From the IMG/VR virus record IMGVR_UViG_3300046355_000289, positions 1 to 26,676 of that record: a stretch of DNA of 26,676 bases, one strand, 5' to 3'. The first letter of the stretch is position 1. Every line of letters starts with the position of its first letter. Of the stretch, positions 3,558 through 6,343 are shown piece by piece. The position numbers were made by a program, and so were the translations under genes. The notes under the pieces were generated by a model that was given only the letters and a program-made list of their open reading frames with translations, made no database searches and was not told where the DNA came from. The DNA is from a virus.

Positions 3558-3845
3558 ATGAAATATAGTGATGTGTTTGCGGAAGAACCAGTGAAGATTC
3601 CTCTAAAGGAAGAATTAAAAAGTTATTTGACCCGTGGTGTTGTTAAGGTTGTCTTTACCAAAAAAGATGGTACCGATAGAACCATGTTGGCTACTCTAAA
3701 TGAAGGATTGATTCCTGAAGATAAGAAGCCAAAGGGTACAGGTAAGAAAGTTGATAATGTTAACACCTTCTCCGTCTATGATACAGAAGCGGATGGTTGG
3801 CGTAGTTTTAATTATGATACTGTGAAAGAGGTTGATATTAAATGA
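3558..3845 (+). CDS. WYL_2 / SH3-like phage protein, 95 aa
   Basis: ATG 3558 with CGGAG (3546-3550) upstream. The order 'LTRGVVKVVFTKKDGTDRTMLATL', 'NTFSVYDTEADGWRSFNYDTVKEV' corresponds to the Sm/SH3-like WYL_2 family (PF10902), common in T4-like phages and annotated there as DUF2693. It is a compact beta-barrel of unknown specific role, probably nucleic-acid or protein binding. Assignment rests on motif memory. ATGA-coupled to the next gene. Confidence 0.85.
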   Translation: MKYSDVFAEEPVKIPLKEELKSYLTRGVVKVVFTKKDGTDRTMLATLNEGLIPEDKKPKGTGKKVDNVNTFSVYDTEADGWRSFNYDTVKEVDIK

Positions 3846-4105
3846 AATACATTGTTGAAACTTTACAGATTCATCGCCATGTTCACGTGGTCGAAGCTGA
3901 AGATGAGGTTGAAGCATTAGAGGTCGCTCGCCAAGCGGATGATAATTGGCAAGAGTATCTTGGTGAATTGAAGGTAGATATTAATGAGTTCACCGAAGAA
4001 CAGATTGCACATTTTAGAAAAAAAGATTTCTTTTGGGACGGTGTATCATATAGAAATGAAAATGGAGTAATTTCTTATGAACACCCAAATAGACCATATT
4101 TTTAA
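3842..4105 (+). CDS. Hypothetical phage protein, 87 aa
   Basis: ATGA-coupled to the WYL_2 gene. Begins MKYIVETLQIHRHVHVVEAEDEVEALEVAR, read here as a beta-alpha unit (split: YIVETLQIHRHVHVVEA, then EVEALEVARQAD) similar to short 'VEAESEEEA' phage proteins. Last protein gene before the tRNA locus; read-through from here could supply the leader transcript of the attenuator. Confidence 0.85.
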   Translation: MKYIVETLQIHRHVHVVEAEDEVEALEVARQADDNWQEYLGELKVDINEFTEEQIAHFRKKDFFWDGVSYRNENGVISYEHPNRPYF

Positions 4106-4117
4106 TAAAGATTTGGA

Positions 4118-4127
4118 TATATAAATG
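4118..4127 (+). promoter_or_regulatory. Possible late-type or leaderless promoter before the tRNA leader ORF
   Basis: TATAAATG at 4120-4127 matches 7 of 8 positions of the T4 late consensus TATAAATA. The overlapping TATATA (4118-4123) ends 5 nt before ATG 4129, similar to the leaderless spacing elsewhere in the window. No -35 is visible. A late-type start would begin near 4133 and lose the leader ATG, so which is used matters. Confidence 0.4.
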
Positions 4128-4128
4128 T

Positions 4129-4200
4129 ATGACTAATATTTTTACAACATCGAATTATGGCACATCATCTAATGAATGGTGTAGTGGGGTTCGTTTGTAA
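4129..4200 (+). CDS. Putative leader peptide (23 aa) of the tRNA operon
   Basis: ATG 4129 to TAA 4198-4200. Codons 6-17 encode TTSNYGTSSNEW: all twelve belong to the amino acids of the tRNA genes downstream (Ser, Trp, Glu, Tyr, Thr, Gly, Asn), and all seven are represented. Overall 17 of 23 residues, counting the initiating Met, are in the set. Three of four Thr codons are ACA, read by the encoded UGU anticodon. The last codons (GGG GTT CGT) overlap the antiterminator 5' arm. There is no strong ribosome binding site (GGA at 4115-4117), so initiation is either weak or leaderless. The sequence is seen directly; a regulatory role is inference. Confidence 0.55.
   Translation: MTNIFTTSNYGTSSNEWCSGVRL
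4162..4182 (+). promoter_or_regulatory. Possible pause hairpin within the leader ORF
   Basis: ACATCA (4162-4167) can pair with TGGTGT (4177-4182), six pairs with one G-U, loop of nine. In trp-type attenuators a hairpin at this place synchronises polymerase and ribosome. Weak on its own. Confidence 0.3.
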
Positions 4201-4230
4201 ATTTTGTAGTCAACAGATTTATACGAACCC
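4187..4230 (+). promoter_or_regulatory. Antiterminator hairpin candidate
   Basis: GGGTTCGT (4187-4194) is perfectly complementary to ACGAACCC (4223-4230). The 3' arm shares 4226-4230 with the terminator stem, so the two hairpins exclude each other. The 5' arm lies in the last codons of the leader ORF; a ribosome finishing the ORF would cover it. Confidence 0.6.
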
Positions 4231-4260
4231 AAGTCTAAACAACTTGGGTTTTTTGTTTTT
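4226..4260 (+). terminator. Rho-independent terminator directly before the tRNA cluster
   Basis: AACCCAAGT (4226-4234), 7-nt loop, ACTTGGGTT (4242-4250), then TTTTGTTTTT (4251-4260). The tRNA-Ser gene begins at the next base (4261). A terminator in front of, rather than behind, a same-strand gene implies regulated read-through. Confidence 0.85.
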
Positions 4261-4348
4261 GGAAGTTTGGGTGAGTGGTTTAAACCAATAGTCTTGAAAA
4301 CTATCGAACAGAAATGTTCCGTGAGTTCGAATCTCACAGCTTCCGCCA
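4261..4348 (+). tRNA. tRNA-Ser (UGA)
   Basis: Acceptor GGAAGTT pairs with AGCTTCC (one G-U); G discriminator, encoded CCA at 4346-4348. Anticodon stem ATAGT/ACTAT encloses loop CTTGAAA, anticodon TGA. A long variable arm (about CGAACAGAAATGTTCC) and T loop TTCGAAT confirm a class II serine tRNA. First tRNA after the terminator. Confidence 0.95.
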
Positions 4349-4350
4349 AG

Positions 4351-4424
4351 TTCTCGCTGGTGTAATGGCAGCACAAGAATCTCCAAAGTTCTTGGTCGGG
4401 GTTCGATTCCCTGGCGGGATGCCA
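4351..4424 (+). tRNA. tRNA-Trp (CCA)
   Basis: Anticodon stem AGAAT/GTTCT encloses CTCCAAA, anticodon CCA. D stem GTG/CAC, T arm CGGGG-TTCGATT-CCCTG, G discriminator and encoded CCA (4422-4424) as in bacterial tRNA-Trp. The acceptor stem TTCTCGC/GCGGGAT has a T-T mismatch at the first pair (1-72) and a U-G, so it is weaker than its neighbours. Two bases separate it from tRNA-Ser. Confidence 0.88.
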
Positions 4425-4459
4425 AGTTTGCCACATAAAATTATTTTTATGTGTATAAT
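4425..4459 (+). promoter_or_regulatory. TTGCCA-N20-TATAAT dyad element, copy 1
   Basis: Directly after the tRNA-Trp CCA: AGTTTGCCA, then an inverted repeat CACATAAAA (4432-4440) / TTTTATGTG (4445-4453), then TATAAT (4454-4459). The spacer is 20 bp, longer than optimal for sigma70. Same layout as copies 2 and 3, but the arms differ in matched fashion. Would drive tRNA-Glu. Confidence 0.7.
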
Positions 4460-4468
4460 AGTTTTAAC

Positions 4469-4544
4469 ATTCGGTTCGACAAGCGGTTTAAGTCACCACC
4501 CTTTCACGGTGGCATCACGGGTTCGAATCCCGTACCGAATACCA
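4469..4544 (+). tRNA. tRNA-Glu (UUC)
   Basis: Acceptor ATTCGGT/ACCGAAT, discriminator A, encoded CCA 4542-4544. Anticodon stem CCACC/GGTGG with loop CTTTCAC, anticodon TTC. T arm ACGGG-TTCGAAT-CCCGT. Its CCA tail overlaps the first bases of a 14-bp inverted repeat that closes the following spacer RNA. Confidence 0.95.
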
Positions 4545-4638
4545 TATTGAAGCACATTTAAATCCTTAACAGGATCGGGATTGGTAAGCCGGAACCTCTA
4601 CTTAGTAAGTTCATTTCACCTTAGTGTGCTTCAATATG
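4543..4638 (+). ncRNA. Long-stem RNA segment between tRNA-Glu and tRNA-Tyr
   Basis: CATATTGAAGCACA (4543-4556) is perfectly complementary to TGTGCTTCAATATG (4625-4638), 14 bp. The enclosed 68 nt can form small hairpins: ATCC/GGAT (4562-4565/4572-4575), CGG/CCG, and GAAC/GTTC (4592-4595/4609-4612). The stem overlaps the CCA of tRNA-Glu and the first G of tRNA-Tyr. It could be an RNase III-type processing stem releasing a small RNA, like the stable RNAs C and D of the T4 tRNA cluster, but I see no sequence similarity to a known RNA. Confidence 0.6.
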
Positions 4639-4722
4639 GGAAAGAAGCATCAATGGTGATGCAGTGGACTGTAAATCCGCCGCCTTATGGCATGACTGGT
4701 TCGATTCCAGTATTTCCCACCA
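4638..4722 (+). tRNA. tRNA-Tyr (GUA)
   Basis: Acceptor GGGAAA/TTTCCC (seventh pair G-A mismatched), A discriminator, encoded CCA 4720-4722. D arm GCATCAATGGTGATGC; anticodon loop CTGTAAA, anticodon GTA; class II variable arm with GCC/GGC; T arm ACTGG-TTCGATT-CCAGT. Confidence 0.93.
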
Positions 4723-4757
4723 AGTTTGCCACACAAGAATAAAAACTTGTGTATAAT
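4723..4757 (+). promoter_or_regulatory. TTGCCA-N20-TATAAT dyad element, copy 2
   Basis: After the tRNA-Tyr CCA: AGTTTGCCA, inverted repeat ACACAAG (4731-4737) / CTTGTGT (4746-4752), TATAAT 4752-4757. Nearly identical to copy 3 at 5262-5296. Would drive Thr-Gly-Asn. Confidence 0.72.
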
Positions 4758-4769
4758 ATAGTTTTAGTA

Positions 4770-4843
4770 GCCCTATTAGTTAAATGGTATAACACTTGAC
4801 TTGTAATCATGGATTGGTAGTTCGATTCTATCATAGGGCACCA
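4770..4843 (+). tRNA. tRNA-Thr (UGU)
   Basis: Acceptor GCCCTAT/ATAGGGC, A discriminator, encoded CCA 4841-4843. Anticodon stem CTTGA/TCATG (one T-T mismatch) around CTTGTAA, anticodon TGT, reading ACA. T loop TTCGATT. Starts 13 nt after the TATAAT of the preceding dyad element. Confidence 0.93.
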
Positions 4844-4845
4844 AA

Positions 4846-4919
4846 GCGGGATTAGTTTAATGGTAAAACGATAGCCTTCCAAGCTTTTGTTATCAGTTCG
4901 ATTCTGATATCCCGCTCCA
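4846..4919 (+). tRNA. tRNA-Gly (UCC)
   Basis: Acceptor GCGGGAT/ATCCCGC, T discriminator, encoded CCA 4917-4919. Anticodon loop CTTCCAA, anticodon TCC; the anticodon stem ATAGC/GCTTT has a T-T mismatch. T arm ATCAG-TTCGATT-CTGAT. Two bases from tRNA-Thr. Confidence 0.92.
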
Positions 4920-4920
4920 T

Positions 4921-4996
4921 TCCCTGATAGCTCAGTTGGTAGAGCGCCGGACTGTTAATCCGTAGGTCGCTGGTTCGAGCCCAGCTCGGGGAGCCA
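4921..4996 (+). tRNA. tRNA-Asn (GUU)
   Basis: Acceptor TCCCTGA/TCGGGGA, G discriminator, encoded CCA 4994-4996. D arm GCTCAGTTGGTAGAGC; anticodon loop CTGTTAA, anticodon GTT; T arm GCTGG-TTCGAGC-CCAGC. One base from tRNA-Gly. Its CCA is the beginning of the next 14-bp stem. Confidence 0.94.
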
Positions 4997-5177
4997 TAAT
5001 TGAGAATGTGAGCGAAAGAAGTAGGAATCCCAACTGTTAGGGAGATTAACCATCCTAGCAAGACCGCATCCATTATCCGGAGAAGGCCTAGTATCCCAAA
5101 ACTAGGATGAAAGCGTGATGTCTAGGAGATGGGCTTTTAAAACCATCTTAAACACACGACAGTATTCTCAATTATGG
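4994..5177 (+). ncRNA. Long-stem RNA segment between tRNA-Asn and tRNA-Met
   Basis: CCATAATTGAGAAT (4994-5007) is perfectly complementary to ATTCTCAATTATGG (5164-5177), 14 bp. The enclosed 156 nt hold hairpins AATCCC/GGGAGATT with a bulged G (5026-5031/5040-5047), CCTAGT/ACTAGG (5087-5092/5101-5106) and AGATGG/CCATCT (5127-5132/5143-5148). CATCCTAG (5051-5058) can alternatively pair with CTAGGATG (5102-5109). No protein frame of note. As with the first segment, the stem includes the upstream tRNA's CCA. A discrete stable RNA is inferred; identity unknown. Confidence 0.65.
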
Positions 5178-5184
5178 TTGTTAT

Positions 5185-5261
5185 GGGCCGGTAGCTCAGT
5201 TGGTCAGAGCAGTGGACTCATAATCCATTGGTCATAGGTTCAAGTCCTATCCGGCCCACCA
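5185..5261 (+). tRNA. tRNA with CAU anticodon (Met, or Ile2 if modified)
   Basis: Acceptor GGGCCGG/CCGGCCC, A discriminator, encoded CCA 5259-5261. D arm GCTCAGTTGGTCAGAGC; anticodon stem TGGA/TCCA around CTCATAA, anticodon CAT; T arm ATAGG-TTCAAGT-CCTAT. The G1-C72 pair argues against initiator tRNA. Elongator Met versus lysidine-modified Ile2 cannot be decided from the sequence alone. Confidence 0.93.
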
Positions 5262-5296
5262 AGTTTGCCACACAAGAACAAAAACTTGTGTATAAT
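5262..5296 (+). promoter_or_regulatory. TTGCCA-N20-TATAAT dyad element, copy 3
   Basis: After the tRNA-Met CCA: AGTTTGCCA, CACAAG (5271-5276) / CTTGTG (5285-5290), TATAAT 5291-5296. Differs from copy 2 by one base over the element. ATG 5306 follows 9 nt after the -10, so the glycosyltransferase mRNA would have at most a few leader bases. Confidence 0.75.
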
Positions 5297-5305
5297 ATAA
5301 TTACA

Positions 5306-6343
5306 ATGAATAAAATTAAAATTGCAATTCTTGTTCCTGCATATAAAGAAGAATTGGTAATTGATAAGACAATAACATCACTATTGACTGCTGGTTTTTT
5401 AAAGAATGATATCTATGTTGTTGATGATTGTTCTGAAGATGAAACTAGTAATATTGCTTTGAGTTATGGTGTTAATGTCTTAACTCTTACCAAAAATTCT
5501 GGCAAAGCTGGTGCAACAAGAGCTGGACTGAATCATTTTAATCTTACCGATAAGTACGATTGGATTACTCTAGTTGACGGTGATTCGATGTTATCGGAAG
5601 ATTTTATTCCAGTGTTAGAGAAGGCAATTGTTAAAGATTCTACACCAGGTCTTTATGTTGGTCAAGTAGTTAGCATTAAGAATGATTCATTGTTTTCAAC
5701 TTATAGAGCATACGAATATGCTTACGGACATGAGATTGTTAAAAAGGGACAAGACAACTTTGGTACTATATTTGTGAGTCCAGGTTGTTGTAGCATTTAT
5801 CGTACTGATGTATTGAAACAATTAGATGTATCAAGTGATACTCTAGCTGAAGATATGGACTTAACTATACAAACGCACAGATTAGGTTATAAGGTTCGAT
5901 ATATTCATGAACTACGAGCTTATACGCAGGATCCGAACAATTTTCGAGATTACTATAAACAGATTACTCGATGGTTTAGAGGACTTTGGCAAATCATTAA
6001 GAAGCATAAGATTTTAAGTCTAAAACGTTGGAATAGAGTTGATATTTACCTAAAGATTATTACACTTGATTCCATAGTTTTTAATAGATTTTTTATGATT
6101 GCTGTTATCTGGACATTTTTTGATATGAAAGTCTTATTGATAGGAATATTAATGGACTATCTTATACAGGCCGCACTTTCAGTCTATGCCGCATTTCTAG
6201 CACGCAACTGGAAAATTATTGTCTACAGTCCAGCATATTATTTTATCGGTTTATTAAATTCTGCGGCATATCTTAAAGCGTTCATTGAAGTATTTGTTCT
6301 TGGTAAGATTGTTTTGAGTTGGAACAAAGTAAAGAGGTATTAA
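5306..6343 (+). CDS. Membrane-bound family 2 glycosyltransferase (polysaccharide-synthase-like)
   Basis: 345 aa from ATG 5306; an upstream in-frame start at 5228 is rejected because it lies inside tRNA-Met. GT-A nucleotide-sugar domain: VPAYKEE at 10-16, VVDD at 38-41, VDGDS (90-94, DxD), AEDMDL (181-186, catalytic Asp) and QITRW (219-223, the QxxRW of processive synthases). The C-terminal ~90 residues form several membrane segments. This is the layout of hyaluronan/poly-GlcNAc/cellulose-synthase-type GT2 enzymes, though short. It might modify the host envelope during infection (inference). It has near-leaderless expression from the dyad promoter and is followed by a gene for a secreted protein. 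Confidence 0.88.
   Translation: MNKIKIAILVPAYKEELVIDKTITSLLTAGFLKNDIYVVDDCSEDETSNIALSYGVNVLTLTKNSGKAGATRAGLNHFNLTDKYDWITLVDGDSMLSEDFIPVLEKAIVKDSTPGLYVGQVVSIKNDSLFSTYRAYEYAYGHEIVKKGQDNFGTIFVSPGCCSIYRTDVLKQLDVSSDTLAEDMDLTIQTHRLGYKVRYIHELRAYTQDPNNFRDYYKQITRWFRGLWQIIKKHKILSLKRWNRVDIYLKIITLDSIVFNRFFMIAVIWTFFDMKVLLIGILMDYLIQAALSVYAAFLARNWKIIVYSPAYYFIGLLNSAAYLKAFIEVFVLGKIVLSWNKVKRY

Follow-up and report, generated by a model that had tools for sequence, protein, structure and literature searches.

The tRNA array of a T4-like phage is very probably controlled by a ribosome-mediated attenuator that would read the supply of charged tRNAs through translation of a short leader ORF. The evidence lies in the ORF itself, in two mutually exclusive helices that covary, in their place before tRNA arrays, and in the conserved amino acid set and biased codons of the leaders, all as read from nucleotide sequence. 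The DNA analysed, here called the window, is the 26,676 nucleotides at positions 1 to 26,676 of IMG/VR record IMGVR_UViG_3300046355_000289; its gp32 is closest to those of cyano-myoviruses (about 51–62% identity), and the phage is T4-like.

A Leader ORF and a Predicted RNA Switch Precede the tRNA Genes

The window contains a 23-codon ORF directly 5′ of eight tRNA genes, all on the plus strand (Table 1). Both had been called in the original prediction, made from the letters alone, and ARAGORN returns the same eight tRNAs, for Ser, Trp, Glu, Tyr, Thr, Gly, Asn and Met. The prediction had also held that the core of the leader uses the amino acids of the array, and recounting agrees: all 12 residues of codons 6–17 (4144–4179) fall in the array set and include all seven of its non-Met amino acids, and 17 of the 23 residues overall belong to it. 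Most codons also fit the encoded anticodons as proposed, except that GGC is not read by UCC and that TCG and TCT need wobble on UGA. Against phage amino acid frequencies, finding 16 of the 22 non-start residues in the array set has a P of about 0.0012, and a run of 12 residues wholly within it has a P of about 9e-5 by simulation, both values following a post hoc choice of set and run. The diversity of the leader is ordinary (14 kinds in 23 residues, P = 0.47). Since the window leader is not exceptional in diversity when taken by itself, and since it was matched to the tRNAs post hoc, the case was rested on relatives, whose conserved layout and composition, as judged by comparison of their sequences, raise the window leader above chance.

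Table 1. Features of the attenuator and the tRNA array in the window
Feature	Position	Strand	Basis
Probable −10 element TATATAAA, 3–5 nt before ATG	4118–4125	+	Direct reading
Leader peptide ORF, MTNIFTTSNYGTSSNEWCSGVRL*	4129–4200	+	Homologous ORF in relatives, ahead of tRNA arrays; dN/dS 0.58 (nearest pairs)
Control region, codons 5–16; a ribosome stalled here is predicted to leave the antiterminator free (codon 10 predicted marginal)	4141–4176	+	Stall-scan folding
Segment 1, predicted to pair with segment 2 (about 4190–4202) without a ribosome	4141–4155	+	Fold
Segment 2 (A), GGGTTCGT, antiterminator 5′ arm in the last ORF codons; would be masked by a ribosome at the stop codon	4187–4194	+	Pairing, folding
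Segment 3 (B), ACGAACCC, pairs with A (antiterminator) or via GAACCC with C (terminator)	4223–4230	+	
Intrinsic terminator, arms GAACCCAAGT (4225–4234) and ACTTGGGTTT (C, 4242–4251), then T residues	4225–4254	+	
tRNA-Ser(UGA), first gene 3′ of the attenuator	4261–4348	+	ARAGORN
tRNA-Trp(CCA)	4351–4424	+	ARAGORN
tRNA-Glu(UUC)	4469–4544	+	ARAGORN
tRNA-Tyr(GUA)	4638–4722	+	ARAGORN
tRNA-Thr(UGU)	4770–4843	+	ARAGORN
tRNA-Gly(UCC)	4846–4919	+	ARAGORN
tRNA-Asn(GUU)	4921–4996	+	ARAGORN
tRNA-Met(CAU)	5185–5261	+	ARAGORN

The original prediction contained no RNA switch, and an antiterminator/terminator pair is found here. The 3′ part of B (GAACCC) doubles as the 5′ arm of the terminator, so that the A:B and B:C helices are mutually exclusive; folding gives −15.7 kcal/mol for the A–B hairpin (4187–4230) and −12.3 kcal/mol for the terminator, which lies 8–10 nt from tRNA-Ser. 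In a stall scan each codon was placed in the ribosomal A site, the RNA was masked to 15 nt past the first base of the P-site codon and the remainder was folded. The antiterminator remained with the ribosome at codons 5–9 and 11–16, and the terminator with the ribosome at codons 2–4, 10, 17 to 23 and the stop codon, giving a predicted control region nearly the same as the codon 6–17 core first put forward. In the ribosome-free RNA, A is paired upstream and the terminator is formed. On these folds, which like those of the relatives describe equilibrium thermodynamics, the predicted layout of the window is that of a leader-peptide attenuator.

The Predicted Switch Recurs before tRNA Arrays in Related Phages

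Relatives were gathered with the 87-amino acid protein encoded at 3842–4105 as query and by pattern scans for the paired elements. The protein yielded 12 and later 49 viral loci in uncultured T4-like phages, often with tRNA genes or arrays 3′ of it, and many of these loci combine a short ORF and a tRNA array with the A/B/C elements found in the window; the three scans, which overlap, returned 24, 37 and at least 80 stretches. The A/B/C layout accompanies 56 distinct leader peptides, that of the window included, in uncultured phages and nearly always directly before tRNA arrays, these freshwater and marine relatives being nearly all uncultured contigs, some of them overlapping and often lacking the array end. 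Among the distinct matches listed with enough flank, a leader-like ORF is followed by a tRNA gene within 350 nt in 42 cases and not in one (L101, tRNA at 620), and no tRNA gene accompanies any of the 5 matches listed without a leader or a further such match (L112); L062, L065 and L147, which do have a tRNA gene, were scored as non-leader only through the script's choice of ORF or threshold. The original prediction had been staked on conservation of the ORF in close relatives, and the ORF is indeed kept before their tRNA arrays: length changes preserve the frame, dN/dS over nearest pairs is 0.58, and its end coincides with the RNA switch in every case.

Covariation was assessed on the 21 loci gathered by the upstream protein or comprising the window, the pattern-derived loci being left out because the pattern itself fixes those positions. 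The A:B helix is 91% paired, and both-sided changes occur in 6 of 11 pairs, above almost all shuffles; alignments slid by 1–3 columns reach 21–56%. In this alignment the antiterminator pairing has compensatory changes. Minimum free energy folds without a ribosome have the terminator formed and A sequestered upstream in 47 of the 56 leaders, and the stall-scan geometry fits many relatives as well as the window. For several families, L032, L058 and L111 among them, the folds favour the terminator at every ribosome position, so that their switch would need to be kinetic.

Five loci (L001, L002, L005, L006 and L011) have no leader directly behind the 87-amino acid gene; the L005/L032 leader stands about 4 kb upstream, before another tRNA block. 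Two of the leaderless loci have a different hairpin, CTTATTGAAATACACTTC...GAGTGTATTTCAATAAG, directly before tRNA-Ser (L001:4290–4365 and L002:3304–3380), and in L001 (4366–4450) this tRNA-Ser seems to be cut after the anticodon by unrelated sequence, the gene being intact in L002, so the first tRNA of the array looks broken in one copy. At L061:8493 a second leader-type terminator, AAACCCCAAGACCTAAAAAATCTTGGGGTTTTT, lies in the same phage region, near a tRNA gene and without a leader ORF. In a 482-kb phage contig (L127:13809–13945) a 29-amino acid ORF with 15 kinds occurs together with this A/B/C pattern, and a tRNA-Asp follows after 27 nt; this may be a further leader family. The 87-amino acid protein has no Pfam match and is absent from the named phages searched; its family has no relative in prokaryote genome contigs and hence gives no clue to the host. 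In named phages, near and distant BLAST of the window found tRNA genes only, and tblastn of the 87-amino acid protein and two leader peptides gave nothing useful.

Leaders of Large Arrays Contain Nearly All Amino Acids in Rare Codons

Leaders before large arrays are 31–46 residues long and contain 18 to 20 of the 20 amino acid kinds; all 20 occur, for example, in MNKLIHITKQCPEYRTFSDNGSWAPVSEVCV (L045, 31 residues), MMNKHSFKQPTRINSWLANYCLEDSRVIGESGKGVSEGRDN (L055) and MNKMLISSHIQARSTSWQQEFYPNCDKARSIVSGVCEM (L111). Twenty-eight representatives, each at least 31 residues long and with pairwise similarity ratios under 0.7, together contain 548 of the 560 possible kinds, compared with 451 ± 7 expected from phage composition (z = 13.5) and 461 ± 7 from the pooled composition of the leaders themselves (z = 12.0). 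Trp occurs in 27 (expected 11.7), Cys in 24 (expected 11.1) and His in 27 (expected 15.8). Column shuffles, which treat columns as independent and take no account of phylogeny (drift would not favour completeness), cut the number of kinds in each of four homologous groups (P = 0.0026, <0.0002, 0.0094 and <0.0002). Because the set is kept while residues trade places, as in KECPQY/KQCPEY, selection seems to bear less on the sequence of the peptide than on the repertoire of codons that it uses.

Codon choice in the leaders is shifted towards codons rare in phage genes. For Glu, GAG makes up 78% in leaders versus 21% in the background, for Arg, CGC 48% versus 10%, and for Gln, CAG 60% versus 25%; conversely GGT falls to 18% of Gly codons from 58% and TCT to 2% of Ser codons from 28%. 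The relative adaptiveness of the leaders is lower than in all 3000 synonymous resamplings. According to theory (PMC1183508), attenuation becomes hypersensitive when the control codons are rare among translated mRNAs, and the rare-codon preference of the leaders is as predicted for sensitive control codons.

Leader Codons Follow the Array in Part

If the leader senses the tRNAs that it controls, its codons should change with the tRNA content of the array, as the original prediction proposed. Across 35 arrays, whose lineages are not independent because the association largely separates large-array from small-array groups, five amino acids behave in this way: leaders lacking an Ala codon precede arrays lacking tRNA-Ala in 7 of 7 cases and leaders with one precede arrays with tRNA-Ala in 26 of 28, and codon and tRNA are both absent or both present, respectively, in 11/12 and 22/23 for Asp, 10/10 and 22/25 for Lys, 5/5 and 28/30 for Pro, and 9/10 and 22/25 for Gln. 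Trp is found in all 35 leaders and all 35 arrays. Within the 11 small arrays concordance is 137 versus 128.6 by permutation (P = 0.038, phylogeny ignored), with Ala and Pro tracking the array best.

Glu fails, the tRNA being present and the codon missing in most leaders, and Cys and His codons occur without matching tRNAs in several relatives. The notion that a leader as a rule uses exactly the amino acids of its downstream tRNAs is not supported, given these missing Glu codons, close relatives with 25–82% of core residues in their own tRNA set, and the large-array phages, in which almost every one of the 20 amino acids is used irrespective of array order; the exact match is thus a property of the window and not of the family.

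Cultured Vibrio Phages Carry a Comparable Leader

The array of Vibrio phages was reached via a tRNA-Thr match and then inspected. Vibrio phage VS2 has the leader MTHSITHSSETLRSDFLRSEFVYLANPCAKQNWDSLL (19 kinds) and a terminator before its tRNA array, a region found in 50 Vibrio phage records, and in KVP40 the leader MTHSNTHSDMILRSDFLRSEFVYLANPCAKQEWSPQT, with 19 kinds and lacking Gly, precedes tRNA-Pro and about 20 other tRNAs. The leaders of nt-1, QD01 and PG216 contain 19 kinds each, that of D482 19 kinds with Gly and without Cys, and those of phi-Grn1 and phi-ST2 18 kinds each. In the KVP40-like phages GTCC...AGTATA pairs with TATACT...GGAC as the antiterminator (−8.3 to −11.3 kcal/mol), and GGACGC pairs with GCGTCC, followed by a T run, as the terminator (−9.5 to −9.8 kcal/mol). 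These stems and, on comparison of the listed sequences, the leaders are unrelated to those of the freshwater families, which implies that the device is old or has had more than one origin. It is not universal, since a short-ORF scan of Klebsiella phage May gave no comparable leader and none was seen by eye in the 97-nt gap before tRNA-Gln of phage T4. With regard to annotation, KVP40.0315 (L151:7061–7225) is an antisense ORF over the KVP40 leader and is probably spurious, and in PG216 a sense ORF from the ATG of the leader (L155:1075–1188) is annotated as a hypothetical protein.

Promoters and Elements between the tRNA Genes

Most relatives have a −10-like element (TATAAT or the T4-late-like TATAAATA) ending 3–9 nt 5′ of the ATG, which predicts an almost leaderless transcript; in the MLFVTK group and the KVP40-like phages the ATG follows a 5′ leader that contains a purine-rich stretch. 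Between the terminator and the first tRNA, about 13 relatives carry a strong sigma-70-like promoter, which would give basal expression and let some genes bypass the switch; the window (gap 8 nt) and most relatives have no promoter there. Further down the window, three copies of TTGCCA, a 20-nt palindrome (CACAAG..CTTGTG) and TATAAT (4428–4459, 4726–4757 and 5265–5296, with TATAAT starting at 4454, 4752 and 5291) stand before tRNA-Glu, tRNA-Thr and a glycosyltransferase gene. A spacing of 20 nt is unusual for a sigma-70 promoter. If these copies are active, tRNA-Ser and tRNA-Trp would be the only members of the array under full control of the attenuator. The last copy stops 9 nt short of the glycosyltransferase ATG. 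Two inverted repeats also lie between tRNA genes, one at 4542–4639 with perfect 15-bp arms enclosing 68 nt and the other at 4994–5177 with perfect 14-bp arms enclosing 156 nt; neither has an Rfam match, and they may be structured RNAs or processing stems.

Proposed Mechanism and Alternatives

From these features we infer translation of the leader, stalling, read-through and a biological trigger. The promoter would end a few bases before the ATG, giving a nearly leaderless RNA on which a ribosome would translate the short ORF behind the polymerase. With all tRNAs available, the ribosome would reach the stop codon and cover A, the B:C terminator would form and transcription would stop before tRNA-Ser. 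Were the charged tRNA for a control codon short, the ribosome would wait upstream, A would pair with B and, with no terminator, the tRNA genes would be transcribed. In the window the control codons would answer to the phage's own tRNAs, and the large-array leaders would detect shortage of almost any tRNA. Possible triggers are starvation and depletion of host tRNAs by anticodon nucleases, the latter being plausible because phage tRNAs have been linked to evading such defences (PMC10264068, PMC11555353). The original proposal that stalling in codons 6–17 switches on the tRNA genes thereby survives as the best-supported explanation on the folding model, given the covarying switch, the stall folds and the recurrence of both, shorn of the exact-set rule and with possibly only tRNA-Ser and tRNA-Trp wholly dependent on it. 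More broadly, a pan-amino-acid sensor is likely to exist in large T4-like phages, KVP40 and its relatives among them: a leader of 31–46 codons with 18–20 kinds and rare codons would detect shortage of almost any charged tRNA (through anticodon nucleases or starvation) and release transcription of up to about 29 replacement tRNAs. Small-array phages like that of the window would retain a shorter form, biased towards the tRNAs that they themselves encode.

A leader that merely senses translation speed, with any slowing of the ribosome (energy loss, inhibition or host shut-off) as the signal and amino acid content secondary, would give the same folds, as any stall in the control region leaves the antiterminator; a sensor of nearly all amino acids would also respond to a general slow-down, and the ermC leader senses global slowdown without amino acid specificity (PMC2965389). 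We nevertheless regard this as unlikely, since it does not predict a set conserved with exchanged positions, near-complete kinds including Trp, Cys and His, or codons that vary with array content and include Trp in 35 of 35 leaders. The same selection on composition, together with the covarying A:B helix, makes it very improbable that the ORF is incidental and that the terminator serves only to end the transcription unit upstream and to insulate the tRNA genes. A terminator before an independently promoted array would be ordinary, and the promoters behind the terminator in about 13 relatives suit such an arrangement, but the window and most relatives have their promoter 5′ of the ORF instead.

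Still less credence is due to a small functional peptide acting in trans: a dN/dS of 0.58 indicates some codon constraint, yet the sequences vary freely between families with the amino acid set kept, KVP40-like and freshwater leaders have no evident sequence similarity, and the ORF always ends at the switch. Equally hard to credit is an RNA that binds tRNA directly in the manner of a T-box, which would share the logic of tRNA status setting the choice between terminator and antiterminator. At gathering thresholds cmscan of the window against Rfam finds only tRNAs, with no T-box or other non-tRNA family, and no T-box appears in 4100–5320 at E up to 5; moreover the leader is almost wholly coding, with no space for a specifier stem, and codon-level selection fits translation. 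If the ribosome-mediated attenuator operates as proposed, the array would be deployed on demand when translation starves and not simply for codon compensation, KVP40, nt-1 and other cultured phages would allow a direct test of the tRNA-depletion hypothesis, and the leader could be used as a reporter of tRNA shortage in bacteria. The device would also be both an attenuator acting on tRNA genes and a sensor in which one ORF covers almost the entire amino acid alphabet; no description of either was found in open-access papers.

Relation to Known Attenuators and Sensors

The closest parallels are the attenuators of the enterobacterial amino acid operons (trp, his, leu, thr, ilvGMEDA, ilvBN and pheA), which likewise have a short leader ORF with control codons and mutually exclusive antiterminator (2:3) and terminator (3:4) helices, here A:B and B:C (PMC1183508). 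The likeness extends to the placing of the stop codon, where a finishing ribosome blocks the antiterminator (here by folding), to termination also without a ribosome (here in most folds), and to control codons cognate to the regulated product, with Glu a partial exception. Those operons encode biosynthetic enzymes, whereas here the genes are for tRNAs and lie in phages. Amino acid operon attenuators sense one to three amino acids. The phage leader, by contrast, is predicted to sense many or all 20, with scattered codons in place of codon runs and on a mostly near-leaderless transcript.

T-box riboswitches also read tRNA charging and choose between terminator and antiterminator, but they bind tRNA directly by a specifier loop; no such element was found here, and sensing would be by translation. 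In ermC-type leader peptides (PMC2965389), as proposed here, translation of the leader senses the progress of the ribosome and not one amino acid; ermC controls translation of one mRNA, whereas here the target would be the transcription of tRNA genes, and the amino acid set is a selected one. Work on phage tRNA arrays and tRNA-cleaving host defences (PMC10264068, PMC11555353) proposes the same use of the arrays upon host tRNA depletion; it treats tRNA sequence and function, whereas a sensor for on-demand deployment is proposed here, and a text search of PMC10264068 finds no mention of attenuation or leaders. That no tRNA cluster was known to be so controlled, as stated at the outset, agrees with our finding no report of attenuation of tRNA genes in open-access papers. 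By analogy, the mode of action would be that of the classical amino acid operon attenuators; the novelty lies in having tRNA genes as the target and phages as the carrier, and in a breadth of up to 20 amino acids within a single ORF.
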